Below are positions 27,890 through 62,736 of a stretch of DNA of 64,000 nucleotides, piece by piece. The notes below the pieces were generated by a model. It had not been told where the DNA came from and did no database searches. It saw only the letters and a program-made list of their open reading frames with translations. Location: assembly GCF_030813715.1 (NCBI RefSeq), contig NZ_JAUSUZ010000001.1:8538501-8602500 (forward strand). Direction: 5' to 3'. How positions within the stretch are numbered: the first letter of the stretch is position 1; every line of letters starts with the position of its first letter. This stretch comes from Catenuloplanes indicus (lineage in GTDB: Bacteria; Actinomycetota; Actinomycetes; Mycobacteriales; Micromonosporaceae). Made by a program: the position numbers and the translations under genes.

Positions 27890-28309
27890 GTGCAGCGCAT
27901 CGTGCTCAACGGAAAGATTCACCGCGCCACCGTCACCCAGGCCGATCTGCATTATGTGGGATCGCTGACCATCGACGCCGACCTGATGAAGGCGGCCGAC
28001 ATCGTCGAGGGTGAGCGCGTCCAGGTCGTCGACATCACCAACGGCGCGCGCCTGGAGACCTACGCCATCACCGGCCCGGCCGGCAGCGGCGTGATCGGCG
28101 TCAACGGTGCCGCCGCGCATCTCGTCCACCCCGGTGACCTGGTCATCGTCATCACCTACGCGATGCTCACCGAGGCCGAGCTCGCCGGTCACACGCCCCG
28201 CGTCGTGCACGTCGGCGAGGGCAACCGGATCGTGGCGCTCGGCGCGTCACCGTCCGAGCCGGTGCCCGGCCGGCCCGAGCTGACCGACGGCGCCCTCGCC
28301 GCCCGGTAG
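27890..28309 (+). CDS. panD: Aspartate 1-decarboxylase proenzyme
   Basis: A 139-residue pyruvoyl-type decarboxylase that converts L-aspartate to beta-alanine. It starts [20 protein letters not shown] and has the invariant YVGS, with self-cleavage expected between Gly24 and Ser25 to give the pyruvoyl group. Later motifs [24 protein letters not shown] and VIVITYA are intact. The GTG at 27890 (AGGAGA, 4 nt spacing) puts Gly24-Ser25 in register. PanD usually serves pantothenate synthesis, but here it is the first gene of an NRPS operon, 28 nt before mbtH. Two A domains in that operon have beta-alanine-type pockets, so a dedicated monomer supply is the likely role. Confidence 0.93.
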
Positions 28310-28337
28310 ACATTTCCCGGACATTGGAGAAATCGCG

Positions 28338-28553
28338 ATGACGAATCCGTTCGACGACGAGAACGGCGTATTCCTGGTGCTCGTGAACGACGAGGGTCAG
28401 CATTCGCTCTGGCCCGAGTTCGCCGAGGTTCCGGCCGGTTGGCAGACCGTGTTCGGCCCGTCCGCCCGGGACGCCGCCCTGGCCTACGTGGAGCAGCACT
28501 GGACCGACATGCGCCCGCGCAGCCTGCGGGAGGCGATGGACCGCGCCGACTGA
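28338..28553 (+). CDS. MbtH-like NRPS accessory protein
   Basis: A 71-residue MbtH-family protein that binds and activates adenylation domains. It has the family pattern: [20 protein letters not shown], the [13 protein letters not shown] core with its conserved Trp residues, and [13 protein letters not shown] at the end. It lies between panD and NRPS1 (28-nt and 44-nt gaps) and so is co-transcribed with them. It is probably required by several of the eight A domains downstream. Confidence 0.95.
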
Positions 28554-28597
28554 CCGAACCGGCAAAACGGACGATCCCCGAGCAGAGAGCGGTTGCG

Positions 28598-39483
<10,886 letters not shown>

Positions 39484-39487
<4 letters not shown>

Positions 39488-42400
39488 CCGGCCTGGAGGA
39501 CGTCCTTCCGCTGTCCCCGCTGCAGCACGGACTGCTCGTCTGGGCGTCCTACGGTGACGCCGCCGCCGACGTCTACGCGGTGCAGCGCGCGTTCGACGTC
39601 GAGGGACCGGTCGACGCGGCGGCGCTGCGGCGCGCGGGTGAGACGCTGCTGCGCCGGCACCCGAACCTGCGGGCGGCGTTCCGCTTCCGGCGCAGCGGCG
39701 ACCCGGTCGCGCTGGTGCCGCGCACGGCCGAGCTGCCGTGGCGGTCCGCGGACCTGACCGCGCTGGACGCCGGCGCGCGCCGCGCCGAGCTGGACCGGAT
39801 CGCGGCGGACGAGCGCACCCGCCCGTTCGACCTGGGCCGGCCGCCGCTGCTCCGCCTGGCGCTGGTCCGCACGGACGAGACGCGCTACACGGTGCTGCTC
39901 ACGTTCCACCACATCCTGCTGGACGGCTGGTCCGTGCCGCGGCTGGTCACCGAGCTGTTCACGCTGTACGGCACGCGCGGCGACGAGGCCGGGCTGGGCG
40001 CTCCGGTCCCGTACCGCCGCTATCTGGCCTGGCTGTCCACTCAGGACGCGGAGGCGTCCGTCGCGGCCTGGCGCCGCTACCTGGACGGGCTCGACGGTCC
40101 CACGCTGGTCGCGTTCGGCGCGGACCTGCACGGCCGCAGCACGCCCACCGAGATCACCACGTTCTTGACCGAGGACGAGACGGAGGCGCTGCGCGCGCTG
40201 ACCCGCCGGCACGAGGTCACCGCGAACACGGTGCTGCAGACCGCCTGGGCGCTGGTGCTCGGCGAACTGACCGGCAAGTCGGACGTGGTGTTCGGGCTCA
40301 GCGGCTCCGGCCGCTCACCGGAGCTGCCCCGCGCCGACGAGATCATCGGTCTGCTGATCAACACGATCCCGGCCCGCGTCACGCCGCGCGCCGGTGAGAC
40401 GGTCGCGGAGCTGCTCACCCGCGTGCAGGCCGGCCAGGCCGGGCTGCTGGCACACCAGCACGTGCGGCTCGCGGAGCTGTCCGCGGGCGGCGGCGAGCTG
40501 TTCGACACGTACGCGGTCTTCGAGAACTACCCGCTCGACCAGGGCGTGCTGGACGCGCTCGGCAGCCGTGCCGGGCTGCGGATCCACGGCGTCGAGTCGG
40601 CCGAGGGCAGCCACTATCCGCTCGGCGTGATCGCCACGCCCGGCGGCCGGCTGCGCCTCGACGTCCGCTACCGCGCCGAGGCGATCCCGCGCGCGACCGC
40701 GGAACGCGCCACGCGACGGCTCACCGACACGCTTCGGACGATCATCGAGAACCCCGGCCGGCGGTACGCCCGGCTGCCGCTGCTCGCCCCGGGCGAGCGC
40801 GCCGATCTGCTGGACGCCCGCAACCGCACCGAGCCGGCTCCACCCGGGGCCACGTTCGCGGAGCTGGTCGCCGGCCACGACCCGGACGCGCCCGCGGTCG
40901 TGCACCAGGGCACCACGCTCACCTACCGCGAGCTGCACGCGCGCGCCGACGTGGCGGCCGGCCGGCTCGCCGCGCGCGGCATCGGCCCGGAGCGCAGCGT
41001 GGTGGTGGCGCTGCCCCGGTCCGCCGACCAGATCGTGGCGATGTTGGCCGTGCTGAAGGCCGGTGCGGTGTACGTCCCGGTCGACACGGACTATCCGGCC
41101 GAGCGTGTGGCGTACCTCCTCGACGACGCCGCGCCCGCGCTGGTCATCATCGCACCCGCGCACACCCGCCTGCTCCCGCCGTCCGCGCCGGTCGTGCTGC
41201 TCAGCGAGCTGGAGGCCGAGGGGCCGTCGCGGGAGCCGGACCGCGCGCGTCCGGACAACGCGGCCTACACGATCTACACCTCCGGCTCGACCGGCCGGCC
41301 GAAGGCGGTCGTGGTCACGCACGCCGGACTGCCCGCGCTGGTCCGCACGGTCGCGGACGCGTTCCGGCCCGGCCCCGGCGACCGGGTGCTGCAGTTCGCG
41401 TCGCAGAGCTTCGACACGTCCGTGTGGGAGCTGTGCATGGCGCTCGGCACCGGCGCGGCCGTGGTGGTCGCGCCACCGGAGCGGCGGCTCGGCCCGGAAC
41501 TGGCCCGGCTGCTCACCGAGGAGCGGATCACGCATCTGACGTTGCCGCCGTCCGCGCTGGCGGAGCTGCCCACGGACGCGGTCGCGCCCGGCACCGTGGT
41601 GATCGTCGCGGGCGAGGCCTGCCCGCCGGAGCTGGCCCGCCGCTGGATCGACGCCGGGCACGTGTTCTTCAACTCCTACGGCCCGACCGAGACCACGGTC
41701 GACGCCACGCTGTGGCGGGCCGGTGAGCCGTCCGGCACCGCGCTGCCGATCGGCCGGCCGGTCGCCGGTACCACGGTCTACGTGCTGGACGCGCTGCTGC
41801 GCCCGGTCCCGCCCGGCATCCCGGGCGAGCTGTACGCCGGCGGCACCGGCCTGGCGCGCGGTTACCGGGGCGTGCCCGGCCTGACCGCCACCCGGTTCGT
41901 CGCGAACCCGTTCGGCCCGGGGCGCCTCTACCGCACCGGTGACCTGGTCCGCTGGCGCGCGGACGGCGACCTGGAGTTCCTCGGCCGCGCCGACCACCAG
42001 ATCAAGATCCGTGGCTTCCGGGTCGAGCCGGGCGAGGTCGAGGCCACGCTCGCCGCGCACCCCACGGTCGCGTCCGCGCTGGTCCTGGCCGTCGACGACG
42101 AGGTGGTCGGCCGCCGCCTGATCGCCTACGTGACGCCGTCCGGCGCGGAGGAGAAACCGGACCAGGTCACGCTGCGCGCGTACGCCGGCCGGAGCCTGCC
42201 CGAGCACATGGTGCCGTCCGCGGTGGTGACGCTGGACGCCTTCCCGCTCACCCCGAACGGCAAGGTGGACCGGGCCGCGCTGCCCGGCGCCGCGCCCGCG
42301 GTCACCGGCACGGCCCGGCCGTCCGGCGGCGCCCGCCCGCGCGAGGAGCTGATGTGCGGCGTGTTCGCGTCCGTGCTCGGCGTGCCCGAGGTCGGCCCGG

Positions 42401-45400
42401 ACGACAGCTTCTTCGACCTCGGCGGCCACTCGCTGCTCTTCGCCCGCCTGGTCGCGCGCGTCGAGGCGGTGTTCGGCACCACGCTGTCGATGTCCGACGT
42501 GTTCGAGGCGCCCACGCCGCGCGACCTGGCCCGGCTGCTGGACGCGGGCCGCCGCCGTCCGCCGCTGACCGCCCGCGACCGCTCCGGTCCGCAGCCGCTG
42601 TCGTTCGCCCAGCGCCGCCTGTGGTTCCTGCACCGGCTCGACGGGCCCAGCGCCACCTACAACATCCCGGCCGTGCTGCGCATCCGCGGCGCGCTGGACG
42701 TGGACGCGCTGCGCGCCGCACTGTCCGACGTGGTCGCGCGGCACGAGAGCCTGCGCACGGTCTTCCGGGACGGCGACGGCGAGGGACTGCAGGAGGTGCT
42801 GGCCGACCCGTCGCTGCCGTTCACGGTCGGCGCGGCCACCGAGGCGGACCTGGACGCGCGGCTGACCGAGGCGGCCGGGCACCGGTTCGCGCTCGACGCG
42901 GAGATCCCGGTCCGCGCGCACCTGTTCGCGCTCGCGCCGCAGGACCACGTGCTGCTCGTGCTGCAGCACCACATCGCGGGCGACGAGTGGTCGGTCGGGC
43001 CGCTGTTCGCGGACCTGCGCCGCGCGTACGAGGCTCGCCGGCTCGGCCGCGCGCCCGCGTTCCCGCCGCTGCCGGTGCAGTACGCGGACTTCGCGGTCTG
43101 GCAGCGGGACCTGCTCGGCGCGGAGGACGACCCGGACAGCGTCGCGGCGAGCCAGGTCGCGTTCTGGCGCACCGCGCTGGACGGCACGCCGGAGGAGCTG
43201 GCGCTGCCGTTCGACCGGCCCCGGCCCGCGGTCGCCGGATACGCCGGTGACTACCTGATGTACGAGATCCCGGCCCCGGTCCACCGTGGACTGCTCGCGC
43301 TGGCCCGCGCGCACGACGTGACGCCGTTCATGGCCGTGCAGGCCGCGGTCGCGGCACTGCTCACCCGGCTCGGCGCGGGCGAGGACCTGCCGCTCGGCTC
43401 GCCGATCGCCGGCCGCACCCAGCAGGAGCTGGAGGACCTGGTCGGCTTCTTCGCGAACACGCTGGTGCTGCGCGTGGACACGTCCGGCGACCCGAGCTTC
43501 GCGGAGCTGCTCGGCCGGGTCCGCCGCACCGACCTGGCCGCGTTCGACCACGCTGACGTGCCGTTCGAACGCCTCGTCGAGGTGCTCCGCCCGGCCCGCT
43601 CGCTGTCCCGGAACCCGCTGTTCCAGGTGATGGTCACCCACCAGCACCGGCTGGACATGGACCTCGGCGTGGCCGGTCTGCAGACCACCGCGATCCCGTT
43701 CGGCCTGGACACCGCGAAGTTCGACCTGACGTTCAGCTTCTTCGGCGACGACGCGGACGGCCCGCTCGGTGCCGGCATCGAGTTCGCCACCGAGCTGTTC
43801 GACCGCGGCACGGTCGCCGGGCTCGCGGACCGGCTGACCCGCCTGCTCGCCGCCGTGGTCGCCGCGCCGGACGCGCCGATCGGTGCCGCGGACCTGCTCG
43901 CACCGGCCGAGCGCGCCGCGCTGACCGCCCCGCCGGAGCCGCCGGTCACCGTTGCGCTGGTGCCGGAGATGTTCGCTGCGGTCGCGTCCCGCCACCCGGA
44001 GCACCCGGCGCTGACCGACGGCGCGGCCGAGGTGAGCTATGCGGCGTTGCACCGGCGGGTCGTGGCGCTGGCCGGACGCCTGCCGGCCGGGCCGGAGGAC
44101 GTGGTCGCGCTCGCGCTCCCGCCCTCGATCGACCTGGTGGTGGCGCAGCTCGCGGTGCTGCACGCGGGTGCCGCCTACCTGCCGCTGGACACCGGATACC
44201 CGGCCGGCCGCATCGCGCTGATGCTCGCGGACGCGCGCCCCGCGCTGCTTATCACGTCCGCGGACATCAGGGAGACCGTCGCACCGGTACGGGACTGGAC
44301 CGGCCCGCTGCTGCTCACCGGCCCGGAATCCGCGGTCCCGGCACAGGATCCGGCGCGGACCGGCCGCGCCCGGCCGGACAACCCGGCGTACGTCATCTTC
44401 ACGTCCGGCTCGACCGGCCGGCCCAAGGGCGTCGTCGGCACCCACGGCGGCCTGGCCGCGCGACTCCACTGGGGACAGACCGCGCTGCCGCTCGGCCCCG
44501 GCGACACCGTGGTGGCGAAGAGCTCGCCCAGCTTCATCGACGGCACCACCGAACTGCTCGGCGCGCTGATCGCCGGCGCCACCGTGGTGCTCGCGGACGC
44601 GGGCACCCGGAGCGACACACACGCGCTCGCCGCGCTCATCGAGACCGCCGGCGCCACCCGGATGACCATGGTCCCGAGCCAGCTCCGCACGCTGCTGGCC
44701 GAGACCGGCCCGGACCGGCTCGCGTCCGTCACCCGCTGGGTCACCAGCGGCGAGACGCTCACCCCGGACCTGGCCGCCGCGCTGCCCGGGATCACCGATC
44801 TCTACGGCTGCTCCGAGGCCAGCGGCGACAGCCTGGCCCGCCCGCACCCGGAGCACCCGGCGTTCACCGACGTGGTCACCGGCACCGCGGTCTACGTGCT
44901 CGACGCCCGGCTCCGCCCGGTCCCGCCCGGCGCGACCGGCGAGCTGTACCTCAGCGGCGCCGGCCTGGCCCGCGGCTACCGGGACGCGCCCGGGCTGACC
45001 GCCACCCGGTTCGTCGCGTCGCCGTTCGCGGCCGGCCGGCGGCTCTACCGCACCGGCGATCTGGCCCGGCGCACGCCCGGCGGCGGCATCGCGCTCCGCG
45101 GACGCGCGGACGCCCAGGTGAAGATCCGCGGCGTACGGGTCGAGCCGCGCGAGGTCGAGGCCGCGCTCGCGGCGCTCGACGGGGTCGCGGAGGCGGCCGT
45201 GCTGGCCCGCACCTCGCCCGCCGGTGAGACGGAGCTGCGCGCGTACCTCGTGCCCGGGGCCGGTTTCGATCTGCCGGCGGTGCGGGCCGCGCTGCGCCGC
45301 ACGCTCCCGGCGCAGCTCGTACCGGCCGCGCTGATCCCGGTCGACCGGATGCCCCGGCTGCCCGGCGGGAAGACCGACCGGCGCGCGCTGGCCCGGCTCG

Positions 45401-48400
45401 ACGCGCCGGCCGGCGAGCCGGTGGACGCGGCGGACGGCACCGAGCGGGAACGCCTGCTCGCCCAGCTCTTCGCGGACGTGCTGAGCCTCCCGTCAGCCGG
45501 GGTGGACCAGGACTTCTTCGACCTCGGCGGCCACTCGCTGGCCGCCACCCGGCTGGTCTCCCGGATCCGCGCGGTGCTCGGCGCCGAGGTGCCGCTGCGC
45601 GCGGTGTTCGAGTCGCCGACCGCCCGCGAGCTGGCCGGCCGGCTGACCGATCGGCCGGCCCGCCCGCCGATCACCGCGCGGCCCCGGCCGGACCGCATCC
45701 CGCTGTCGTTCGCGCAGCGCCGCCTGTGGTTCCTGGACCGCCTGGAGGGCCCCGGCACGGTCTACACGATCCCGCTGCTGTCCCGGCTGCGCGGCGACCT
45801 CGACGTGGACGCGTTGCGCGCCGCGGTCGCGGACGTGGTGACCCGGCACGAGCCGCTGCGCACGCTGCTCGTCGAGCACGACGGCGAGCCGTGGCAGCAC
45901 ATCCTCGCCGAGGCGCCGGACGTGTTCACCGTGCACCCGGACGCGGACCTGCCGGCCGGGCACCGGTTCGCGCTCGACGCCGAGCCGCCGATCCGGGTCG
46001 ACCTGGCGCGCACCGGGCCGGCGGAGTGGCTGCTGCTGATCCTGCTGCACCACACCGCGGCCGACGCGCTCTCCACCGGCCCGCTCGTCGACGACCTGGA
46101 GACCGCGTACGCCGCGCGGCACGCCGGGCACGCGCCGTCGTGGACGCCGCTGGCCGTGCAGTACGCGGACGTCACGCTGTGGCAGCGGGAGCACCGGGGG
46201 AGCGCCGGCTACTGGCGGGACCGGCTGGCCGGTGCCCCGGCCGAGCTGACACTGCCCACCGACCGGCCGCGGCCCGCGCTGCCCGGCTACACCGGCGGCA
46301 CGGTCAGCGAGCCGCGGCCGGACGGGCTGGACGCGCTCGCCCGTACGCTCGGCGTCACCCCGTTCATGCTGTTCCAGGCCGCGGTCGCGGCGCTGCTGTC
46401 CCGGCTCGGCGCCGGTGACGACATCCCGCTCGGAGCGCCGGTCGGCGGCCGCACCGAACCCGCGCTGGAGCGCCTGGTCGGGTTCCTGGTCGACACCGTG
46501 GTGCTGCGCACGGACGTGTCCGGCGACCCGACGCTGGCCGAGCTGGCCGCGCGCGTGCGCGACGCCGACCTGGCCGACCTCGCGCACCAGGACGTGCCGT
46601 TCGAGCTGCTGGTCGAGCAGCTGAGGCCGGAACGCGCGCGGGCTCGGCACCCGCTCTTCCAGATCCTGGTCAACCAGCACCGCGCGGGCGAGCCCGGGGT
46701 GCGGCTGGCCGGGCTGGTGAGCGAGTCGGTGGCGCAGGCGCCGGACACGGCCAAGTTCGACCTCAGCTTCCTGCTGGAGGACGACGCGGTGTCGCTCAAC
46801 TACGCCGCGGACCTGTTCGACCACGGCAGCGCGCGGACCGTGCTGCGCCGTCTGACCCGGCTGCTGGCGGCGGCGACGCCGGGCACGCGGGTGTCCGAAC
46901 TGGACGTGCTGCTGCCCGCGGAGCGCGTGGCGCTGCGGGAGCGGAACGCGACCGCGCACGACGTGCCCGGCGGTACGGTCGTCGACCGGCTGATCGAGGC
47001 GGCGCGCGCCCACCCGTACGCGATCGCGCTGCTGCCGGACGGCGGCGTGCCGGTAACCTACGCGGAGCTGAGCCGGTCCGCGGCCGCGCTGGCCCGCGCG
47101 CTGCGCAACCGCGGCGTGGCGCCCGGCGACGTGGTCGGTGTGCGGATCCCGCGTGGCCCGGAGCTGGTGATCGCGCTCTGGGGCGTGCTGCGCGCCGGGG
47201 CCGCGTACCTGCCGATCGACCCGGACCACCCGGACGAGCGCGCCGAGCTGCTGCGCGCCGACGCCGGTGCCCGCCTGGTGCTCGGCGCGGACGACGTGCG
47301 CGCCTGGTCCGCGGGCCCGGCCGCCGACCTGCCGCCGCCGTCACCGGACCTGCCCGCCTACGTCATCTACACGTCCGGGTCGACCGGGCGCCCGAAGGGC
47401 GTCCGGGTGCCGCACCGCGCGCTGACCAACCGGCTGGAATGGATGCAGGCCGCGTTCCGGCTCGGCGACGGCGACGCGGTGCTGCAGAAGACACCGGCCA
47501 CGTTCGACGTGTCCGTGTGGGAGTTCTTCTGGCCCGCGCTCGCGGCCGCGCCGCTGGTCATCGCGCGGCCGGGCGGCCACCGCGACCCCGGCTACCTCGC
47601 GGCGCTGATCCGCCGCGCGCGTGTGACGGTCGCGCACTTCGTGCCGTCGATGCTGCGTGAGTTCGCCGCCACCCCGGCCGCCGGGTCCTGCGCGAGCCTG
47701 CGGCTGCTGGTCACCAGCGGTGAGGCGCTGGCCGCCGACCTGGCCACCGCCACCCGCGGCCTGCTCCCGCACGCCGAACTGCACAATCTCTACGGCCCGA
47801 CCGAGGCCACGGTGGACGTGACGGCGTGGCACGTGACCGGCGACGACGTGCCGATCGGGCGGCCGGTCTGGAACACCCGCGCGTACGTGCTGGACCGCCG
47901 GCTGCGGCCGGTGCCGGACGGCGTGCCCGGCGAGCTGTACCTGGCGGGCGTGCAGCTCGCGGACGGCTACCTGGGCCGGGCCGCGCTGACCGCGGAACGG
48001 TTCGTCGCGGACCCGTTCGCCCGCGGCGAGCGGCTGTACCGGACCGGTGACCTGGCCCGGTGGCGGCCGGACGGCGCGTTGGACTTCCTCGGCCGCACCG
48101 ACCACCAGGTGAAGGTGCGCGGTCTGCGGATCGAGCCGGGCGAGGTGGAGGCCGCGCTGGCCGCGCTGCCCGGCATCGCGGCCGCCGTGGTGGTCGCGCA
48201 CGGCGACCGGCTCGCCGCATACGTCACGCCCGCGGACGAGCGTCACCTCGCACCGGCCGCGCTGCGCGCCGCGCTCGCCGGGACGCTGCCGGAGTACCTG
48301 ATCCCGTCGACGTTCACGGTGCTGGCCGAGCTCCCGCTCACCACCAGCGGCAAGGTCGACCGGCGGGCACTGCCCGACCCGGCGTCCGCACCGGCCGGCG

Positions 48401-51400
48401 CCGAGGCACCGCGCGGGCTCGGCGAGGAGGTGCTGTCCGGCGTCTTCGCGGACCTGCTCGGCGTCGACCGGGTCGGCGCGGAGGACGACTTCTTCGCGCT
48501 CGGCGGCCACTCGCTGCTCGCGGTGCGCCTGGTCGCCCGGCTGCGCACGGTCTTCGGCGTCCAGCTGGCGCTGCACGACGTGTTCGACGCGCCGACCGTG
48601 CGCACGCTCGCGGAGCGGCTGCGGCGCGGCGGGGACCGGCCGGCGCTGCGGGCCGGTGCGCGCCCGGACCCGCTGCCGCTCTCCCCGGCGCAGCAACGGC
48701 TGTGGTTCATCGACCGGATGGACGGGCCGTCCGGCACGTACAACATCCCGTTCACGGCCCGGTTCCGCGGCGCGCTCGACCTGGAGGCGTTCACCGCGGC
48801 CGCGTCCGACGTGGTGGCCCGGCACGAGATCCTGCGCACGGTCTACCCCGCGCCGGGCGGCCGGGCCGCGCAGTCGATCCGGGCGCCGCACCCGGTCACG
48901 ATCATCACCGAGGGTACGGTCGCGGAGGCGATCCACCGGCCGTTCCGGCTGGACCGGGAGATCCCGATCCGGTTCCACGCGTTCGCGGCCGGGCCGGACG
49001 AGCACGTGGTCGCGGTCGTGGTGCACCACATCGCGGCCGACGAGTGGTCCGCCCGGCCGCTGTTCACCGACCTCGCCATCGCGTACGCGGCCCGGGTGTC
49101 CGGAACCGCGCCGGAATGGGACGCGCCGCTGCCGGTGCAGTACGCCGACTACGCGCTCTGGCAGCACGACCTGCTCGGCACCGGCGACGACAAGACGCCA
49201 CTGGCCGCGGAACAGCTCGCGTTCTGGAGCGCGGAACTCGCCGGCCTGCCCGAGGAACTCGCGCTCCCGGGCGCCCGCCCCCGCCCGCCGGTCGCCACCT
49301 ACCGCGGTGAACTCGGCCGCCGGCCACTGTCGACGGAGCTGGCGGCGGCGCTGCGGTCGGTGGCCGCGGCGCACGGCGTCACCGTGTTCATGGTGCTGCA
49401 GGCCGCGGTCGCGGTGCTGCTGCGCAAGCTGGGCGCCGGTACCGACCTGCCGCTCGGCACGCCGATCGCGGGCCGGGCCGACGCCGCGCTCGACGACCTG
49501 GTCGGCTGCTTCCTGAACACGCTCGTGCTGCGCACCGACGTCTCCGGCGACCCCACGTTCACCGAGCTGCTCGACCGGGTGCGGCGCACCGACCTGGCCG
49601 CGTTCGCCCATTCTGACCTGCCGTTCGAGCGCCTGGTCGAGCATCTCGCGCCGGCCCGCTCGCTGTCCCGGCACCCGCTCTTCCAGGTCGTCACCACCCA
49701 CCGGTACGCGGACCAGGACGGCTTCGGTCTCGCGGGCCTGGAGGTGGCGCCGGAACCGGCCGAGTTCACCGTCGCGAAGTTCGACCTGACGTTCGTCATC
49801 GAGGAGGACGCGGCCACCGGCGCCACCACGCTGGAACTGACCTGCGCCCGCGACCTCTTCGACGACGGCACCGCGGACCGGCTGCTGGACCGCCTCGACC
49901 GGGTCCTGCACGCCGTCCTCACCGACCCCGGCCAGCGGATCAGCACGGTACGGGTGCTGGACGACCGCGAACGCGAGCTGGTCCGGCACGGGTGGAACCG
50001 GACCGCGCGGGACGTACCGTTCACCGACCTGGCCGGGCTGTTCGAGGCGCAGGTGGCGGCCCGGCCGGACGCGGTCGCGCTGGCCGACGGCGACCGCGAG
50101 CTCACCTACCGGCAACTGGACGCGGCCGCGAACCGGCTCGCCCACGCGCTGCTCGGCCGCGGCGCCGGGCCGGAGCGGATCGTCGCGGTCGCGCTGCGCC
50201 GGTCCGCGGAGGTGGTGACCGCGATCCTGGCGGTGGCCAAGACCGGCGCGGCGTACCTGCCGATCGACCCGGACCACCCGGCGACCCGGGTACGGCACGT
50301 GCTCGACGACGCGCGGCCGGTGCTGGCGGTCGCGGCGCGCGCAGAAGACGTACCCGCGCCGGGCCCTGAGGTCGTCGACGTCGCCATGGCGTGGGCTGCC
50401 GGTCCCGCCACGCGGCCGGACCGGGCGGCGCCGGTGCCGTCGCGGCTGGCCTACGTCATCTACACGTCCGGGTCGACCGGGCGGCCGAAGGGCGTGGCGG
50501 TCCCGCACGCGGGGCTGCCGGACCTGGTCGCCACGATGGCCGGTGGGTCGCGCGGCGGCGCCGGGGCCCGGGTCGGGTCGTTCGCGTCGTTCTCGTTCGA
50601 CGTCACGGTGGCGGAACTGGCCATCTCGATCCTGAGCGGCGGCACCGTCGTGCTGCTGCCGGACCACGCCCGCGCCGGTGCCGCGCTGGCCCGGTTCGCC
50701 ACCGCGCAGCGGCTGACCCACCTGGTGATCCCGCCGTCCGTGCTGTCCTCGCTGCCCCGGCCCGGCACCGCTGAGCCGACGATCGGCCCGGACGTGACGC
50801 TGCTGGTCGGGACGGAGGCGCTGCGCCGCGACCTGATCCGGGACTGGGCCGGCGGGCGGCTGTTCCTGAACTGCTACGGCCCGACCGAGACGACCGTCAA
50901 CTCCACCCTGTGGACGGCCGAGCCGGACTGGCCGGGCGCGGTGCTGCCGATCGGGCGGCCGGACGTGAACCGCCGCGCCTATGTGCTCGGGCCGGACCTG
51001 GCGCCGGTGCCGCCGGGCGTGACCGGTGAGCTGTACCTGGCCGGCGGGCTCGCGCGCGGCTACCTCGGCCGGGCCGGGCTGACGGCGCAGCGATTCGTGG
51101 CCGACCCGTTCGGCGTGCCGGGCGGCCGGCTCTACCGCACCGGCGACCTCGCCCGGTGGACCGGCACCGGGCTGCTGGAGTACCTCGGCCGCGCGGACGA
51201 CCAGCTCAAGGTGCGGGGCCTGCGCATCGAGCCGGCTGAGATCGAGGCCGCGCTCCGTGACCTGCCCGGCGTGGCGGCCGCCGCGGTCGCGGCCCGCCCC
51301 GGTCCGGACGGCCGCGACCGTCTGGTCGGCTACCTGGTTCCGGACGGCGACGCCCCGGACCCGGCGCGGATCGCGCGGCTGGCGGGGGAGGTGCTGCCGG

Positions 51401-53232
51401 CCGGGATGGTGCCGTCCGCGTGGATGGTGCTGGACGCGCTGCCGCACACGGTCGCCGGGAAGCTCGACCGCGACCGGCTGCCGGCACCGGCCACGGTCGA
51501 GGCGGAGCGGGCGGACGCGGCCACCGATGTCGAGCAGACGCTGGTGGACCTGTTCGCGGAACTGCTCGGCCGGGACGATCTCGGTGCCACGGACGGCTTC
51601 TTCGCGCTCGGCGGCGACAGCATCCTGTCGATCCAGCTGGTCGCCCGGGCCCGCGACCACGGGCTGCTCCTCGCACCGCGGGACGTCTTCGAGAACCCGA
51701 CGCCGCGCGAGCTGGCGGCGGTCGCGACCGAGGCCGGAATCGCGGTGCACGATCCCGGCGCCGGCGCCGTGCCGCTGACCCCGATCATGCGCCGGTTCGT
51801 GGACGCGGACCCGGCCGTGGCGAAGTTCGGCCAGGCGTTGCGGTTGAGTCTGCCGGCCGGGCTGACCGAGCGGACGATCCGGGACGGGCTGCGCGCGGTC
51901 CTGGGCCACCACGACGCGCTGCGCGCCCGGCTGGAGCCGGGCCGTCTGGTCGTGCCGCCGGAGGTGCCGGAGCCGGCGCTGACCGTGGTGACCGGCGACG
52001 CGGAGCTGCCCCTGGCGACCGCACGGGCCGGCCTGGACCCGTGGCGCGGCGCGATGATGCACGCGCTCTGGCGCGACACCGGGCCGGGCCGGCGCTCCGA
52101 GCTGCTGATCCTGATCCACCACCTGGTGGTCGACGGCGTCTCCTGGCGCATCCTCGCGGCCGACCTCGAGTCGGCCTGCACCGCGCTCCATCACGGACGG
52201 ACACCGCGGCTCCGCCCGGTCGCCACGTCGCTGCGCACCTGGGCGCGGGCGCTGCCGGACGCGGCGCTCGCCCGCGAACCGGAGGCCCGCTACTGGCGTG
52301 ACGTGCTCGACGCCGTCACCCCGGCACCGCGCGGCCGCGCGGCGGCCTCCGCCGGGTCCACACCGGGGGCCGGGCCCGGCGCCCGCGGCGGTGCGGCCGG
52401 CACACCTGATCCCGCCGCTGCCGCGAATGCGGCCGAGCCCGGCACGCTCGACACCGTCGCGCAGCTGAGCCGGACGCTACCGGCCGCGGACACCGCGCCG
52501 CTGCTCGGGGACGTGCCGGACCGGCTGCGGGCGGGCGTCAACGACGTGCTGCTGGCCGCGCTCGGGCTGGCGTTGCGCGAGTGGACCGGTGACGAGACCG
52601 TGATCGACCTGGAGGGGCACGGGCGCGAGCAGCAGATCGTGCCCGGCGCCGATCTGACCAGGACGGTCGGCTGGTTCACCACGGTCTATCCGGTGCGGCT
52701 CGCGACCGGTGGTGCCGGACTGGCCGAGGCCGAGGCCGACCCGGGCCGGGCCGCGGCGGCGGTCAGGGCCACGGCCGCGTCGCTCGGCACGGTCCCGGAC
52801 CACGGCATCGGGTTCGGGCTGCTGCGCGAGCTGGCCCGGCACCCGGCGCTGACCGGGGCGCCGCGGCCGTGGATCGCGTTCAACTACCTGGGCCGGATCG
52901 GTGGCACGCCGGACCGCCACGGTGCCGGCTGGCGCATCGACGGCGGTCTCGGCGGCACGGTGGACGGGCACCGCGTCGCTGACCACACGCTCAGCATCGA
53001 CGTCACGGCCGTGCCCGGTGCGGACGGGACCGCACTGCGGGCCGTCTTCGCCTACGTCTCCACCGCGATCGAGGAGGACTCCGTGGACCGACTGGCCACG
53101 CTGTGGGAACGGGCGCTGCGTGCGGTCGCGGCCGCCGCGGTCACCACCCGGCTCACCCCGGCCGACGTGCCGCTCGCCGGGCTCGACCAGCGGCAGCTGG
53201 ACCGGATCGCGGCGAAGTGGGCCGCCCGATGA
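39484..53232 (+). CDS. NRPS2: C-A-T-C-A(beta-Ala)-T-C-A(Ser)-T-C-A-T-E
   Basis: A 4582-residue synthetase with four full modules. C1 (1-430, HHILLDGWS at 142) is of the D-Cl type, fitting the E domain ending NRPS1. The C2, C3 and C4 starts ([11 protein letters not shown] type) are L-Cl; C3 has HHTAADA, with the usual Gly replaced. Pockets: A1 D-T-W-T-I-A-S-V-D (unassigned); A2 I-D-T-T-V-S-L-G-D (beta-alanine type, first Asp missing; [13 protein letters not shown]); A3 D-V-W-H-V-S-L-V-D (serine); A4 D-V-A-V-L-G-C-V-N (unassigned). The last T is GGDS type before an intact E ([10 protein letters not shown]). ATG 39484 overlaps the NRPS1 stop by 4 nt and has GGAGG 5 nt upstream. Confidence 0.93.
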
Positions 53233-56200
53233 GCGCGATCACGGACGTCCTGCCGCTGTCCCCGTTGCAGGAGGGCTTGCTCTTCCTCAGCGGGTACGCG
53301 GATTCCGGCCCCGATCCGTACACGGTGCAGCTCGTTCTCGATCTTCGTGGCCCGCTCGGCGCCGGCCGGCTCCGGCAGGCCGCGAACGCGCTGCTCGACC
53401 GGCACCCGCACCTGCGCGCCGCGTTCTGGACCGAGGACGTGGACCGCCCGGTCGCGCTGGTACCGGACCGGGTCGACGTGCCGTGGACCGAGACGGACCT
53501 GTCCGGCCCGAGTCACCGGACCGGCATCCTCGAGCGCGCCGAGGCCATCGCGGCGGCGGAGCGAGCCCGCCGGCTGGACCTGACCAGGCCGCCGCTGTTC
53601 CGCTTCCACCTGCTGCGGCTCGGACCGGACCGGCACCGGCTGCTGGTGACCAGCCATCACCTGCTGCTCGACGGCTGGTCGACCGCGCCGCTGATCCGGG
53701 AGCTGCTCACGCTCTACCGCGCACCGGGCACGCTGCCGGAGCCGGCCCGATACCGCGACTACCTCGCGTGGCTGGCCGCCCGCGACCGGCCTGCCGCCGT
53801 CGGCGCGTGGCGCGCGGACCTGGCCGGTGCGGTCTCCTGCACCCCGTTCAGTGGTCCCGCGCGGCCGTCCCCGGTCGTGCACCGGGTCGCGGCCGACATC
53901 GACGGCGGCGGGCTCATCGCGCTGACCCGGGAGCTGGGCGTCACGCTCAATACGGTCCTGCAGTGCGCCTGGCTGACCGTGCTGGCCGCGGCCGGTGGCG
54001 GGCCGGACGTGGTCACCGGTCAGGCCGTGTCCGGCCGTCCGGCGGAGCTGCCCGGCGCCGACGGGATGATCGGGCTGTTCCTGAACACGGTCCCGGTGCG
54101 GGCCCGGCTGCGCCCGGCGGAGCCGTTCGCGGACCTGCTCCGGCGCCACCAGGCCGCGCAGGCCGCGCTGCGCGAGCACGCGTGGCTGGACCTGCCCGCG
54201 ATCCTGAACGCGGCCGGGCAGGGCGAGCTGTTCGACAGCCTGCTCGTGGTCCAGACGTTCCCGGGCGTGGAACGGACTGACGAGTCAGACGGCCGGCTGA
54301 CCGTGGAGTCGGTCGAGGGACATGACGGATCGCACTATCCGGTGATGCTCACGGCCGCGCCCGGCGCCGGCCGGCTCCGGCTGGAACTGAAGTACCGCGA
54401 CGGCACGCCCGGCGCCGCCGCGCTCCTCGACCGCCTGCTGCGCGTCCTGACCCAGATCATCGACGATCCGGCGGTACGCACCGGCGCGGTCACCACGCTC
54501 GACGACCACGACCGGTCGCCGGTCACGACCGCGCCGGCCGCAACCGTGCGGCGGGCGGGCGGGCTCCCGTCCGCGGATGCCCGTGCCGCGGTCGGCGCGG
54601 CGCTCCCGGAGGACCTGTCCGCGCTGCTGAGGCCCGCGGATCCGGCCGCCACCGCGCTCGTCTGCGACGGGGCCGGCATCAGCGCGGGTGACCTCAGGGA
54701 CCGCGCCGATCGGCTCGCGGCGGCGTTGCAGCACCGCGGGATCGGGCCGGAATCCGTCGTCGGGCTCGCCACCGGCTACCGCCCGGAGCTGGTGGCCGGG
54801 CTGCTCGCGGTGCTACGGACCGGCGCGGCCTACCTGCCGCTCGACCTCGATCATCCGCCGGCCCGGCTCCGCCACATGATCGACACGGCGCGTCCCGATC
54901 TGCTGCTGACGACCGGTGAGCTGCCGTACGACGTCCCGCAGCTCGACGTCACCGCGCCGCTGCCGGACGCGGCGCCGAAACCGGTCACCGTGGACCCGGA
55001 CCATGCCGCCTACGTGCTGTTCACCTCCGGGTCCACCGGCACGCCGAAGGCCGTGATCGGCACCCGCGGCGGTCTGGCCGCCCGGCTGAGGTGGATGCTG
55101 GCGGCCGAGCCAGCCACGCCCGGCGACGTCGTGCTGGCCAAGAGCTCGATCGGCTTCGTCGACGGCTCGACCGAACTGCTCGGCGCGCTGGCCGCGCACG
55201 TGCCGGTGGTGCTGGCCGGCCGGGACGACCGCCGCGACCCGCTCGCGCTCATCGACCTGATCGAGCGGCACCGGATCACCCGGCTCACGGCCGTACCGAC
55301 GCTGCTGCGGGCGCTGGCGGAGCACGGCCGCGGCCGGCTCGGCTCGGTCAACCTGTGGATCTCCAGCGGTGAACCGCTCACCCGCGCGCACACCGACGGC
55401 CTGACCGCGCGCGTGGTCAACCTGTACGGCTGTTCCGAGGCCAGCGGCGACAGCACCTACCTGGCCGACGCGCGCCGGGACCCGCACCTCGGCACGCCGA
55501 TCACCGGCACCGCGGCGTACGTGCTCGACGCCTGGCTGCGCCCGGTGCCGGTCGGGGGCGTCGGTGAGCTGTACCTGTCCGGCGCCGGCCTGGCCCGCGG
55601 CTACCTGCGTGCGCCCGCCGCGACCGCGGACCGGTTCGTGGCGCACCCGTTCGTGCCCGGCGCCCGCCTCTACCGCACCGGCGACCTGGTGCGGCGCCGC
55701 GCCGACGGCGGTCTCGACCACCTCGGCCGCACCGACGAGCAGGTCAAGGTGCGCGGCCACCGCATCGAACCGGCCGAGATCGAGTCCGTGCTCGCCACCG
55801 CGCCCGGTGTCAGCGCGGCCGCGGTCACCGTCCACGACGGCCGCCTGACGGCCTATCTCGCGCCGGGTTCCGGCCACACCGCGGGTTCCGGGGGCGGGGC
55901 CCGCCCCGCCGGAACCGGGGATGCCGGTGCGAGCGGCGCGCGGATCGACCTGACCGCGGTCCGTGCCCATGCGGCCGGGCGGCTCGCCGAGCACCAGCTG
56001 CCGTCGATCATGGTGGTGCTGGAGCGGCTGCCGATGACACCGACCGGGAAGGTCGCCCGGCGCGAGCTGCCGAAGCCGGATCCGGCCGCGCTGACCGGCA
56101 CCGGACGGCCACGCACGCCGGACGAGCGCGCACTGGCCCGGATCTTCGCGGACGTGCTCGGCCTGCCGGAGGTGGGCGTGCACGACGGCTTCACCGAGCT

Positions 56201-59200
56201 GGGCGGCGACAGCATCCTGTCGATCCGGCTGGTCAACCGCGCGCGCGAGGCCGGTCTGCCGCTGCGGCCCCGGGACGTCTTCGAGCACCGGACCGTGGCC
56301 GCGCTGGCCGCGATCGCCCGTCACCACGGCGAGGACGGCGTGGACGACGGCGAGGCGGCGCTGCGGGCGTTCCGGGACCGGCATGCGGCGCTGCGCGACG
56401 ATCCCCGGGTCGAGGACGTGCTGCCGCTGACGCCGTTGCAGGCCGGCATGTTCTTCCTCGCCGGGTACGACCGGGAGGCACCGGACGTCTACACGATGCG
56501 GCTGCGGCTGCGGCTGCGCGGGCCGGTCGACGAGGAGCGGCTGCGCGACGCGGCCCGCCGCGTGATCGCCCGGCATCCCGCGTTGCGCGCGAGTTTCGTC
56601 CACCACGACGGCGAACCGGTGCAGATCGTACGGACCGCGCCGGGCGGCTCGGAGCCGGAGTGGAACGGGCCGGACCGGCGCTTCGACCTCGGCGCACCCC
56701 CGCTGATCCGCTTCGCGCTGGACCGCGTCGCCGACGGCGAGCACCGGTTCACGGTCACGAACCATCACCTGATCCTGGACGGCTGGTCCGTACCGCTGCT
56801 GGTGCGGGAGATCTTTGCGACCTACGCCGGGCTGGAGCCGGACACGCCGGCCGGCGGCCACCGCGCCCACCTGCGCTGGCTCGCCACCCGCGACCGCGCG
56901 GCCGCCGCCCGCGCCTGGCGGGACGCGCTCGACGGCCTGCCCGGCCCCACGCTGCTGGCCGGCCCGGCCGCCGCTGCTCGCCCGGACGGCGGCGGCGCCG
57001 ACCTGTTGCCGCTGGCCCTGCCCGCGGGCCGGGCCGAGGCGCTGACCGCGCTGGCCCGCCGCACCGGCGTCACGCTGAACACGGTGCTGCAACTGGCCTG
57101 GGCCACCGTGCTGGCCCGCGCGACCGGGCGCGACGACGTGGTCTTCGGCGCCACCGTCTCCGGCCGCGACGCCGGTTTCCCGGACGCCGAGGCCACGCTC
57201 GGGCTGCTGATCAACACGGTGCCGGTCCGGGTCCGCCTGCCGCGCGCGGAGACGGTCGCCGGCGCGCTGCGGCGGGTCCAGGCCGAGGCCGCGGCGCTGC
57301 TGGAGCACCGGCACGCCGGGCTCGCGGACGTGCTGCGCTGGTCCGGCCGGCGGGAACTGTTCGACACGCTGCTGGTCTTCGAGAGCTTCCCGGTCGACGA
57401 GGACGCGCTGCACGCGGCCGAGCGCGCGGCCGGCCTCGACGTCGCGGCGCTGGCCGGTGAGTCGGTCACGCACTACCCGCTGACGCTGACCGTGCTGCCC
57501 GGCACCGGACTGGACCTGATCCTGGAGTACCGCCCGGATCTGTTCACCGCGGACGCCGCGGCCCGGCTCGGCGACCGCCTGCTGGCCGTGCTCGCCGCGA
57601 TCGTGGCCGCCCCGGACGCCCCGCTGGCCGCGCTGCCCTCGGCCGGCCCGGCCGAACGTGAGCTGGTCCTGACCGGCTGGAACGACACGTCCACGGCCGG
57701 CGCGGAGCAGCTGCTGCCGGACCTGTTCGCCGCGTGCGTGCGCAGCCGGCCGGACGCACCCGCGCTGGTGCTCGGCGGCACCACGTGGACGTTCGCCGAG
57801 ACCGGCGTGGCCGTCGACCGGATCGCCGGTGCGCTGCAACGACACGGCGTCGGGCCGGAGGACCGCGTCGCCGTGCTCGGCTCCCGCACGCCGGAGGCGA
57901 TGGCGGCGATGCTGGCCGTGCTCGCGTCCGGCGCGGCCTACCTGCCGATCGACCCGTCCTATCCGGCCGAGCGGATCCGGACGCTGCTGACCGGCGCGCG
58001 CCCGGCCGCGCTGCTGCACACGCCGGACGTACCCGCGCCGCCGTTCGACGGCCCGGTGCTGAGCACCGACGCGGCCGGCCCGTTCACCGCGCCGCGGATC
58101 AGCGGGCAGCACCCGGCGTACGTGGTCTACACCTCCGGGTCCACCGGCACGCCGAAGGGCGTGGTCATCCCGCACGCCGCGATCGCGAACCTCTACCGAA
58201 GCCACCGCCGGCACCTGCACGAGCCGACCGTCCGGCTGGCGGGGCGGGAGCGGCTGCGGGTCGCGCACGCCTGGCCGTTCGCGTTCGACGCGGCCTGGCA
58301 GCCGCAGCTGTGGCTGTTCAGCGGCCACGCGGTGCACCTGGCCGACGAGGAGCAGCGCACCGACCCGGCCGCGCTGGCGAAGCTGATCGACCGGTCCGGC
58401 ATCGACTTCGTCGAGGTCGCGCCCGCGATGCTGGCCGCGCTGGACGACCTCGGTATGTTCCAGCCGGACCGGCACACGCTGTCGATGATCGGCTTCGGTG
58501 GCGACGCGGTGGGGGAGCAGCAGTGGCGCCGCCTGGCGAACACGCCCGGCCTGGCCGCGGTCAACCTCTACGGCCCGACCGAGTGCACGGTGGACTCGCT
58601 GGCCGCGTTCGCCACGGACGCGGAACGGCCGGTGATCGGCCGGCCGGTGGACAACGCCCGCGCGTACGTGCTGGACGCGAACCTGAGCGTGCTGCCGCCC
58701 GGCGTGCCCGGCGAGCTGTACCTGGCCGGTGCCGGCCTGGCCCGCGGTTATCTGGACGCACCGGCCGCGACCGCGGCCCGGTTCGTGGCCAGCCCGTTCG
58801 AGCCCGGCGGCCGTCTCTACCGCACGGGCGACCTGGTGCGCTGGACCGAGAACGGCACGATCGACTACCTCGGCCGCACCGACGACCAGGTCAAGATCCG
58901 CGGGTACCGGGTCGAGCTGGGCGAGGTGCAGGCCGCGCTCGCCGCCCACCCGGACGTGGCCCAGGCCGAGGCCGCCGCGCCCACGCTCGGCAACGGCCGC
59001 CGGATCCTGGCCGGGTACGTGGTGCCGCGCGCCGGGCGGACGCTCGACCCGGCCGCGTTGAAAGGACACCTGGCCGCACGGCTGCCGGACTTCCTCGTAC
59101 CCGCGGCGTTCGTGGTTCTGGATCGTCTGCCGCTGACCGGGAACGGCAAGGTGGACCGGGCCCGCCTGCCGCGCCCCGACCTGGCGGCGCCCACGTACCG

Positions 59201-59429
59201 CCCACCGGCCACCGACGCGGAGCACAAGCTCTGCGCGGCGTTCGCGGAGGCGCTGGGCGTGGACCGGGTCGGCGTCGACGACGACTTCTTCGCGCTCGGC
59301 GGTGACAGCCTCGCCACGCTCCGCCTGGTCGCGCTGACCAAGGACGTCAGCCCCCGGGACGTCTTCACGCACCGCACGCCCGGCGCGCTCGCAGCCGCCG
59401 GGAACCCCCACCCCAAGGAGTACGCATGA
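53229..59429 (+). CDS. NRPS3: C-A(beta-Ala)-T-C-A(basic)-T, no thioesterase
   Basis: A 2066-residue synthetase. C1 (1-425, HHLLLDGWS) is D-Cl-like, matching the E at the end of NRPS2. A1 (about 458-950) has pocket V-D-T-T-I-S-L-G-D with [13 protein letters not shown] and [11 protein letters not shown], paralogous to the beta-alanine A domain of NRPS2. C2 (about 1060-1470, HHLILDGWS) is also D-Cl-like although no E precedes it; beta-alanine is achiral, so this need not matter. A2 pocket is D-A-Q-E-G-G-L-V-D (basic residue likely). The final T ([11 protein letters not shown]) is about five residues shorter than its neighbours between helices, and the protein ends there without TE, R or C domain. 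It overlaps NRPS2 and the oxidase by 4 nt each. Confidence 0.92.
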
Positions 59430-61399
59430 CCGAGATACCCGACCCGCACGTCACCCGGCGGCGGTTGCTCGCCGGCGGCGTCGCCACCGGTGTCGCGGGC
59501 GCCGCGCTGCTGACCAACGAGTCGGTGCGCGGCCTGCTCGCGGTGGACGGCACGCCCACGCTGCCGCGCACCGTGCCGGTCGCCGCGCAGCAGCGGCTGC
59601 CCGGCCGGGCCGTGGCGGCCAGAGCGGTCTCGGCCTATCCGGAGCCGCTCACGCCGTACCGGGATGCCCTGCCCGTGCCCCGGGTCCTTCGCCCGGAACG
59701 GGGCCGCGGCGGCCGGCCCGCCGAGCTGACCGTGCCGATGCGGCTGGCGAAGCACCGGTTCCACTCGCAGCTCGGGCCGAGCACGGTCTGGGGCTTCGAC
59801 GGTACGGTTCCCGGTCCCACCATCGAGGTGCGCGCGGACGAGCCGGTCGTGGTCCGGTGGGTCAACGCGCTCACCGGGAAGATCCCGCTGCGCGCCTGCG
59901 CGCCGATGATCGCCTGGGCCGACCCGCCGCTCTGGGACCGCCCCGGCACCGACGGCGCACCGCTGCTGACCGACGTGTCGAACCTTCCACCGTGGACGGT
60001 CGTGCACCTGCACGGCGCGGAGACCGGCATGGACAACGACGGCTGGCCCGAGGCCGGCATCCCGCCCGGTCAGGCGCAGGTCGCCGAGTACGCCAACGAC
60101 CAGCGCGGCACCGCGCTGTGGTACCACGACCACGCCATGCCGATCTCCCGATGGAACACCATCGCCGGGCTCAGCGGCCTCTACCTGATCCGCGACGCCA
60201 CCGAGGACCGGCTCGGGCTGCCGTCCGGGAAGTACGAGATCCCGCTGCTGCTCTGCGACCGTAACTTCGACACCGACGGCGCCGGGAAGCTCACGCCGTT
60301 CCAGCTGTACAAGACGGTCATGTACGCGACCGAGCCGGAACTGCTGGCGACCAGCTTCTCCGGGCCGTTCACCACGGTCAACGGCGTGATCTGGCCGCAC
60401 CTGGACGTCGAGCCGCGCTGGTACCGGTTCCGGGTGGCGAACGTGTCCAACGTCCGCCCGTACCACCTGCAGCTGACGCTGGAGGACGGCACCGCGGTGC
60501 CGGAGACGGCGATCAAACTCATCGGTACGGACGGCGGCCTGCTCGCCGCGCCGGTCGACGCCGGGACGGTGAGCGTGCTCGCGGCCGAGCGCGCCGACAT
60601 CCTGATCGACTTCTCCGCGTTCAAGGGCAAGAAGCTGATCCTGAAGAACGCGGACTACGACCCGGGGCCGTGGCCGCAGGTCATGCAGTTCCGGGTCGGC
60701 AGCGGCCGGGGCGCCGGCTGGAAGCCACCGGCCACGCTCGACGCGAAGCTGCCGAAGCCCGGCACCGCCGCGGCCCAGCGCATGATCATGTTCCCGCCGC
60801 TCGGCACCGGCCAGATCGAGCAGTGGGAGATGGTGGAGACCGAGGCGCCGGCCGGCCCGTTCCCGGTCGACGGCATCGTGCAGGTCAAGGGCCCGGACGG
60901 CGGCGTGCGGACGTACCGGCGGGTGGCCCGCGGCTTCCACGACCCGGCCCGGTTCATGGTGCGGACCGGCGACTGGGAGGACTGGACCTGGATCAACCTG
61001 GACGTCGGCGGCTGGCCGCACCCGCAGCACGTGCACGCCACCCACTTCACGGTCAAGCACCGCCATTCCTACGACGTGGCGGAGAAGTGGGAGTTCATCC
61101 TGGACGACGCCGGCCGCACGGTCGGCGGGGGCACGGTGGCCCCGATCGAGTACCGCGAGACTCTCCCGGCCGCCGCGTCCGACGCCGGCTGGAAGGACGT
61201 GGTCTCGGTCAACAACGGCGAGGCGGTCACGGTAACCGCCCACTTCGCGCACAGTGGCCGCTTCCTGCACCACTGCCACATGCGCGACCACGAGGACATG
61301 GGCATGATGCGCCCGTTCGTCGTGATGCCGGCCGAGGTCCTGAAGATCGAGCACCAGGCCGGCCACCCGATGGAGAACCCGGGCCACTCCGGCCACTGA
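59426..61399 (+). CDS. Tat-exported multicopper oxidase
   Basis: A 657-residue oxidase of the phenoxazinone-synthase/bilirubin-oxidase-like group. An N-terminal twin-arginine signal (VTRRRLLAGG then a hydrophobic stretch) predicts Tat export, folded with copper. All four copper motifs are present: HLHG (His194/196), WYHDHAM (His234/236), HPQHVH (His532/535/537) and HHCHMRDHEDMGM (from His615), the last with the type-1 Met ligand. The ATG overlaps the NRPS3 stop (ATGA) and has AAGGAG, so it is co-translated with the synthetases. Likely roles are oxidation of a phenolic or aminophenolic part of the product, or ferroxidase activity if the product is a siderophore; neither is shown. Confidence 0.9.
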   Translation: MTEIPDPHVTRRRLLAGGVATGVAGAALLTNESVRGLLAVDGTPTLPRTVPVAAQQRLPGRAVAARAVSAYPEPLTPYRDALPVPRVLRPERGRGGRPAELTVPMRLAKHRFHSQLGPSTVWGFDGTVPGPTIEVRADEPVVVRWVNALTGKIPLRACAPMIAWADPPLWDRPGTDGAPLLTDVSNLPPWTVVHLHGAETGMDNDGWPEAGIPPGQAQVAEYANDQRGTALWYHDHAMPISRWNTIAGLSGLYLIRDATEDRLGLPSGKYEIPLLLCDRNFDTDGAGKLTPFQLYKTVMYATEPELLATSFSGPFTTVNGVIWPHLDVEPRWYRFRVANVSNVRPYHLQLTLEDGTAVPETAIKLIGTDGGLLAAPVDAGTVSVLAAERADILIDFSAFKGKKLILKNADYDPGPWPQVMQFRVGSGRGAGWKPPATLDAKLPKPGTAAAQRMIMFPPLGTGQIEQWEMVETEAPAGPFPVDGIVQVKGPDGGVRTYRRVARGFHDPARFMVRTGDWEDWTWINLDVGGWPHPQHVHATHFTVKHRHSYDVAEKWEFILDDAGRTVGGGTVAPIEYRETLPAAASDAGWKDVVSVNNGEAVTVTAHFAHSGRFLHHCHMRDHEDMGMMRPFVVMPAEVLKIEHQAGHPMENPGHSGH

Positions 61400-62435: not shown

Positions 62436-62736
62436 CGGATCTCCTCCGGCTCAGGTCGGCGAGCGTGGCACGACGGAGTCCGGGCAGCGCGCACGGGACA
62501 TTCACGCATGACCTCCCCCGTCATGCGGCAGACCATACACCCGCCTACGCCATGTAGATTTGTGCGATTCGATGGCAATAGTGCAGATAATTCGGCGCTA
62601 TTGCCCGCTTTTGGGTAGCCGGGAATTCGGTGCGCGCGGAACTGCGCATGACGATTTGGTGTCGTCCGTCGCGCATTCCCGGACGGCCGGTTCTACTCAT
62701 CACCGCACGACGTGTGACGAGACGGGGGAGAGCGGG
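62436..62736. promoter_or_regulatory. Divergent intergenic region with an AT-rich hairpin
   Basis: About 300 bp between the secreted peptidase and the transposase-like gene. An 11-bp stem (GGCAATAGTGC at 62574-62584 with GCGCTATTGCC at 62595-62605, one G-T) encloses a 10-nt AT-rich loop. It could be an operator or a remnant element end; no matching repeat was seen on the other side of the transposase gene. Confidence 0.45.

Follow-up and report, generated by a model that had tools for sequence, protein, structure and literature searches.

A panD-headed NRPS operon of Catenuloplanes indicus, predicted to supply and use beta-alanine for a siderophore

Does the panD gene that heads a long nonribosomal peptide synthetase (NRPS) operon in Catenuloplanes indicus serve the peptide, the cell's pantothenate, or both? 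The window analysed here is a 64-kb stretch (positions 8,538,501-8,602,500) of the 9.25-Mb genome, which is rated 100% complete; coordinates below count from the first base of the window. From the gene content, the adenylation (A) domain codes, the homologous clusters, the linkage counts and the PanD phylogeny, all of which were read directly, we consider it highly probable that the product of the operon is a nonribosomal siderophore containing two beta-alanines and that the operon supplies its own beta-alanine. The coupling of an aspartate decarboxylase with a beta-alanine-using NRPS is already known from the excerpted literature on madurastatin, the kribbellichelins and kirromycin/aurodox. 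Two results go further: PanDs linked to an NRPS form a lineage, and a PanD of that lineage is the sole one found in these Catenuloplanes. A literature search turned up no paper on the window's cluster, among the matches listed, and no characterised product that shares its order of modules; a preliminary description of the locus knew of no family for the full order.

The operon and its adenylation domains

The genes form a single plus-strand operon of panD (from 27890), mbtH, NRPS1, NRPS2, NRPS3 and a multicopper oxidase gene (ending at 61399), with overlaps of a few bases between the NRPS frames and with the oxidase frame. This order, with panD at the head, had been proposed in the preliminary description and is borne out, down to the exact start at 27890. 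The panD frame (27890..28309) opens with a GTG preceded by GGAG and has its stop at 28309. Its product, a pyruvoyl aspartate 1-decarboxylase, scores 151 bits against TIGR00223 (cut-off 106) and 162 bits against PF02261 (cut-off 25), and keeps the Gly-Ser self-processing site, in the form YVGS, GS being present at the site in all 112 PanDs compared. The 71-residue MbtH-like protein (28338..28553) reaches 99.5 bits against PF03621 (cut-off 27) and finds no match in NCBIfam; the same gene is present in G004, another Catenuloplanes. The oxidase (59426..61399) has, by eye, a twin-arginine-like signal, and its nearest NCBIfam model is PhsA, at 596 bits under a cut-off of 950. In each of the six clusters read, an oxidase homologue comes after the NRPS genes.

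By motif reading, NRPS1 (28598..39487) has the order C-A1-T-C-A2-T-E-C-T-E, NRPS2 (39472..53232) C-A3-T-C-A4-T-C-A5-T-C-A6-T-E, and NRPS3 (53229..59429) C-A7-T-C-A8-T, all on the plus strand, with no thioesterase motif found in any of the three. The third module of NRPS1 lacks an A domain, because across the six clusters read its C-domain histidines and T-domain serine are separated by 322-511 residues, too few for one; modules with an A domain span about 830-970 residues over that distance.

The A-domain codes were read by alignment to A3, with the final K assumed and with the pocket positions in a numbering that we take to be GrsA's. They are DA(L or D)DVGAVDK for A1, DVWHFSLVDK for A2, DTWTIASVDK for A3, IDTTVSLGDK for A4, DVWHVSLVDK for A5, DVAVLGCVNK for A6, VDTTISLGDK for A7 and DA(W or Q)EGGLVDK for A8. 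In A1 and A8, residue 239 is set by the placing of a one-residue gap (the gapped alignment gave L and W, respectively). The A2 code is identical to the serine code of enterobactin and turnerbactin in the available text of PMC3795760, and the A5 code is serine-like. The gapped A8 code, DAWEGGLVDK, is identical to the hydroxyornithine code of scabichelin as given in an excerpt of PMC7692728, and A8 is read as having an N5-hydroxyornithine code. Two codes, DTWTIASVDK and VDTTISLGD(K), were found by the literature search in no paper.

Position 235 binds the alpha-amine in ordinary A domains. A4 and A7 have Ile or Val at 235, and their Asp 236 could hold a beta-amine. The preliminary description had singled out the pockets IDTTVSLGD and VDTTISLGD, together with an 11-residue stretch common to both domains, and all three are confirmed on the plus strand, the pockets reading from 44533 (within the A4 specificity core at 44515..44832) and from 55155 (within the A7 core at 55137..55454). 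Both domains show the marks of the madurastatin-type beta-alanine A domain: a hydrophobic residue and then Asp at 235/236, the pocket xDTTxSLGD, and YGCSEA(A/S)GDS. A4 and A7 are only 52-56% identical, and therefore their common pocket does not stem from a recent copy. Sixty listed matches of A7 to solved structures, made by sequence, comprise general A domains and some beta-aminoacyl-ACP synthetases, with no title among the 60 naming a beta-alanine NRPS domain.

Probable beta-alanine domains and an NRPS-linked PanD lineage

A genome scan with the 106-residue A-domain core, keeping the best 80 of 90 confirmed stretches, gave 78 loci with this A-domain type, all actinobacterial by their record titles. 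The code IDTTISLGD occurs in 48 of the 54 loci readable by pattern search, the other 24 of the 78 being unreadable. One locus (L081) belongs to Actinomadura sp. WMMA1423, a madurastatin producer, and it provides, by analogy, the strongest single support for the beta-alanine reading, namely the presence of this A-domain type at the madurastatin beta-alanine position. In the strain's 4013-residue NRPS, a domain of this type is the second A domain, followed by a third and then by an A-less module. Madurastatin assembly, in the excerpts of PMC10779116 and PMC10951976, runs through glycine, beta-alanine and hydroxyornithine, with the last module A-less on reanalysis, and the cluster includes an aspartate 1-decarboxylase.

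The genomic company of the domain points the same way. A PanD profile built from 38 seeds, the window's own sequence among them, finds panD within 10 kb in 43 of the 78 loci, some of which are shortened by contig ends. When 42 of the loci were checked genome-wide (a set that takes in C. japonicus itself), 36 of the 42 genomes had a panD no more than 60 kb from a domain of this type, against a chance expectation of roughly 2.7% per genome; WMMA1423, at 57 kb, is the farthest of the 36. Among the six unlinked genomes, five have the A domain and panD on separate contigs, which are short in G281 and G296 and longer in G308, G312 and G314 (three unlinked contigs are 158-505 kb long), and in the sixth, G298, the panD match on the A-domain contig is only partial. 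The window and five other clusters read have panD in the same cluster as the beta-alanine NRPS.

Pairwise dN/dS for panD among four Catenuloplanes clusters is 0.00-0.35, and 0.08-0.11 in the three pairs that involve G002, the most distant cluster; A7 gives 0.11-0.19 over six Catenuloplanes pairs, and A4 gives 0.12-0.34 over the three pairs that match in length. Pockets nearly identical to those of A4 and A7 are found in Actinosynnema and Actinophytocola. On these dN/dS values and the recurrence of the pockets in both of those genera, the pattern of panD, A4 and A7 is more than chance. The proposal of the preliminary description, that a panD and two beta-alanine-type A domains are joined in one operon, is supported by the madurastatin position and by the linkage in 36 of 42 genomes, and it is a well-supported prediction that one operon both supplies and uses beta-alanine. 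PanD would decarboxylate L-aspartate to beta-alanine, which A4 and A7 would activate. The combination of YGCSEA(A/S)GDS with xDTTxSLGD offers a strong genomic rule as an indicator of beta-alanine, mostly with panD close by.

What appears to be an NRPS-linked lineage, separate from that of the housekeeping enzymes, emerges from an unrooted tree of 112 PanDs over 112 columns, the number left when duplicates were removed from the 122 found. A 100/96 branch sets apart 51 cluster-linked PanDs, the four Catenuloplanes PanDs and one from Mycolicibacterium neoaurum, placed there though unlinked by the linkage test; the remaining 56 lie across that branch. The cluster label changes 3 times on the tree, against 37 in shuffles. 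The split is a branch of an unrooted tree with several long branches and an unsettled bootstrap. The Catenuloplanes PanDs group with the Actinosynnema and Actinophytocola cluster PanDs (93/80), and their closest identity outside the genus, 84.5%, is to the cluster copies of Kutzneria and Kibdelosporangium. The window PanD sits with NRPS-linked PanDs and apart from the other PanDs of its own family.

The predicted siderophore and its relatives

The colinear product would be aryl-X1-(D)Ser-(D)X-X-betaAla-Ser-(D)X-betaAla-hydroxyOrn. It is most likely a siderophore of the catecholate-hydroxamate kind, a reading suggested by the downstream uptake genes, the scabichelin-type code of A8 and a 2,3-dihydroxybenzoate (2,3-DHB) operon elsewhere in the genome. 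We infer all of its substrates, the aryl cap, the loading of the A-less third module, release free of a thioesterase and the role of the oxidase. The uptake genes lie about 12 kb past the oxidase, outside the window, and encode a siderophore-interacting protein (SIP), a FecCD permease, a binding protein (Peripla_BP_2) and two ABC transporters with membrane domains. By sequence, SIP and FecCD also follow the cluster in G002-G004. In G002 and G004 the binding protein does so too, whereas the sequence read in G003 stopped short of that point. Ferric complexes would be handled by the SIP and the FecCD-type importer.

No ligand-making genes were seen in the window or in the 37.5 kb read downstream. 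A four-gene 2,3-DHB operon lies 1.44 Mb from the NRPS cluster, and such an operon is present, unlinked, in all four Catenuloplanes with the NRPS. Its ligase is over the TIGR02275 cut-off in three of them and one bit under it in G003; a second ligase match, weaker than the first, occurs in both G000 and G002, and G001 has no 2,3-DHB ligase match at E 1e-60. The unlinked operon would probably supply 2,3-DHB as the aryl cap. For the hydroxamate, a Lys/Orn N-monooxygenase at 3.10 Mb (PF13434, 359 bits; six further matches reach 22-35 bits), with a carrier protein and a GNAT acetyltransferase as neighbours, would probably N-hydroxylate the ornithine. NCBIfam names no ornithine model for it, and it is not specific to the NRPS, because all seven genomes asked have a homologue, including the NRPS-less sister genome G001 (58% identity). 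With the 2,3-DHB operon and the N-hydroxylase both more than a megabase away, their use here is a matter of prediction.

Homologous clusters with panD, NRPSs and oxidase occur in Actinosynnema sp. ALI-1.44 (G275) and Actinophytocola xinjiangensis (G276), which brings to three the actinobacterial genera linked with the predicted siderophore of nine modules and two beta-alanines. Both have panD, the oxidase, the uptake genes and three NRPSs. As far as the domain order could be read, it matches that of the window (in G276 the motif missed some A domains and the order was read in part), and the codes that were read are of like kind; in G275 this is true of all eight, with small differences. Unlike the Catenuloplanes clusters, theirs adjoin the four 2,3-DHB genes, with AMP ligases over the TIGR02275 cut-off in both, and, unlike the window genome, both hold further panDs.

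Among characterised systems, the kribbellichelin cluster krb, as excerpted from PMC9962454, likewise has two beta-alanines, an in-cluster aspartate 1-decarboxylase (Krb30), A domains predicted for beta-alanine, serine, beta-alanine and ornithine, and an ornithine monooxygenase outside the cluster. However, krb has four modules, picolinate-type caps and a thioesterase, whereas the window has nine modules and a multicopper oxidase, the cap is probably 2,3-DHB, and no thioesterase was seen. The madurastatin clusters mad, rene and mds, in the available text of PMC10779116 and PMC10951976, share with the window a LYGCSEAAGDS-type A domain at the beta-alanine position (tested in WMMA1423), an aspartate 1-decarboxylase, hydroxyornithine, an A-less module and the lack of a thioesterase domain, but their product is a pentapeptide with one beta-alanine and a salicylate-oxazoline cap. 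By its nine modules, and by cap genes that would differ, the window cluster is neither madurastatin nor kribbellichelin proper. Kirromycin and aurodox (KirD-KirB, AurD-AurB; PMC9361827, in part) also join an aspartate decarboxylase to a beta-alanine NRPS module, though in an NRPS-PKS antibiotic. Their beta-alanine code in that source, DTLQLGVIWK, differs from that of A4 and A7. CahI of cahuitamycin, considered as a further aspartate decarboxylase, was dropped, the excerpted paper giving it as a putative salicylate synthase.

The sole PanD found in Catenuloplanes

The preliminary description had suggested looking for a second, housekeeping panD elsewhere in the genome; none was found genome-wide. 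The window genome has one panD and one panC, 3.34 Mb apart, and four of the five Catenuloplanes genomes have exactly one panD, heading the NRPS operon. The fifth, G001, has panC but neither a panD nor any match to the A-domain type. Elsewhere at least two panDs pass the cut-off in 38 of the 42 genomes, the exceptions being C. japonicus, G281, G298 and G312. In four other genera of the family checked (G005, G012, G013, G035) panD adjoins panC, and in G019 the order, with names given by eye, is panC-panD-lipoproteins-nadB-like-coaX-like. All five Catenuloplanes genomes have a lipoprotein gene directly after panC and no panD there; judged by this gene order, Catenuloplanes has lost the panD copy beside panC. 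The window panD fails the marks of a housekeeping gene, being neither beside panC nor grouped with housekeeping PanDs.

The sole panD may therefore serve pantothenate instead of, or besides, the peptide. That one PanD does both, the siderophore-type enzyme having taken over beta-alanine for coenzyme A once the housekeeping copy was lost, is a reading that we regard as possible and hold tentatively. It would account for the lack of any other panD in four of the five genomes and for the absence of panD from the panC locus in all five, but the fifth genome has no panD of any kind. Of 61 genomes of the family and order, 16 have no panD match, from which it follows that life without PanD is not rare there. 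Other possible sources of beta-alanine also weigh against the dual role. A hydantoinase/dihydropyrimidinase-family gene is present in all five Catenuloplanes, which makes a route from pyrimidine breakdown possible, and the four with panD also have PLP decarboxylase-family genes, a further candidate source (PF00282 matches number three in G000 and one or two in G002-G004, while G001, which lacks panD, has none). A fuller version, somewhat more doubtful, is that a PanD of the siderophore pathway, acquired with the NRPS cluster and possibly iron-regulated, replaced the housekeeping PanD, that coenzyme A would then depend on a secondary-metabolism operon, and that the cluster-less species would need another source of beta-alanine. 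Catenuloplanes is a natural test of whether an enzyme of secondary metabolism can take over a vitamin pathway.

Supply of beta-alanine to the siderophore is the preferred reading. A rival is that A4 and A7 take a closely related compound in place of beta-alanine, for example beta-aminoisobutyrate or 2,3-diaminopropionate. The kasichelins, thought to obtain beta-alanine by another route, hold beta-aminoisobutyrate or beta-alanine at one position (PMC12305651, as excerpted), but the adjacent panD would yield beta-alanine, the homologous madurastatin NRPS domain is assigned to beta-alanine, and no aldehyde-dehydrogenase (CdeT/KasF-like) match was found in the 20 window ORFs scanned; we judge an analogue very improbable.

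The preliminary description had allowed that a genome with only this panD, and with panB/panC nearby, would imply ordinary pantothenate synthesis. The first part stands and, for panC, the second does not, and we think it very improbable that panD is simply the cell's pantothenate enzyme, placed by chance before an NRPS operon whose A4 and A7 use something else: it is the sole copy in a genome rated complete that has panC, but panC is megabases off, panD is missing from the panC locus in all five genomes of the genus, the protein groups with NRPS-linked PanDs and not with its own family's others, and a sister genome has panC yet no panD. A relocated housekeeping panD was likewise rejected, the tree putting the window PanD with those linked to an NRPS.

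NRPS1 third module and flanking genes

The third module of NRPS1 (35700-39487, forward strand) has a C-T-E arrangement without an A domain; its substrate must be loaded by an A domain next to it or else in trans. This A-less module is present in all six clusters read, in each of which the last NRPS gene is also followed by a gene for a PhsA-like multicopper oxidase (59426-61399 in the window, forward strand, with a Tat-like signal). This oxidase may take part in maturing the siderophore or in handling iron or copper. An ISAZ013-type transposase (62560-63717) separates the operon from the uptake genes farther downstream.

Unlinked candidate ligand genes

A four-gene 2,3-dihydroxybenzoate operon (7099-11326 of L245, a stretch elsewhere in the genome) lies 1.44 Mb from the NRPS operon, which it probably serves; the 20 kb read there contains no NRPS beside it. 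Nor was an NRPS seen in the 20 kb read around a carrier protein, Lys/Orn N-monooxygenase and GNAT acetyltransferase group at 3.10 Mb (L239, 9191-11515).

Beta-alanine sources and other PanDs

A search of G001, the Catenuloplanes genome without a beta-alanine-type A domain match, found panC and neither a panD nor a Pyridoxal_deC match; its beta-alanine perhaps comes from pyrimidine breakdown. The window holds a Pyridoxal_deC-family match (2279-2869, forward strand; 52 bits vs a cut-off of 27) ~25 kb upstream of panD, and cluster-bearing Catenuloplanes G004 has a comparable one ~30 kb upstream. Additional PanDs (L036, L037, L189 and L193) sit on long branches outside the NRPS-linked group; possibly they belong to other biosynthetic clusters, and each of their genomes holds another panD too.
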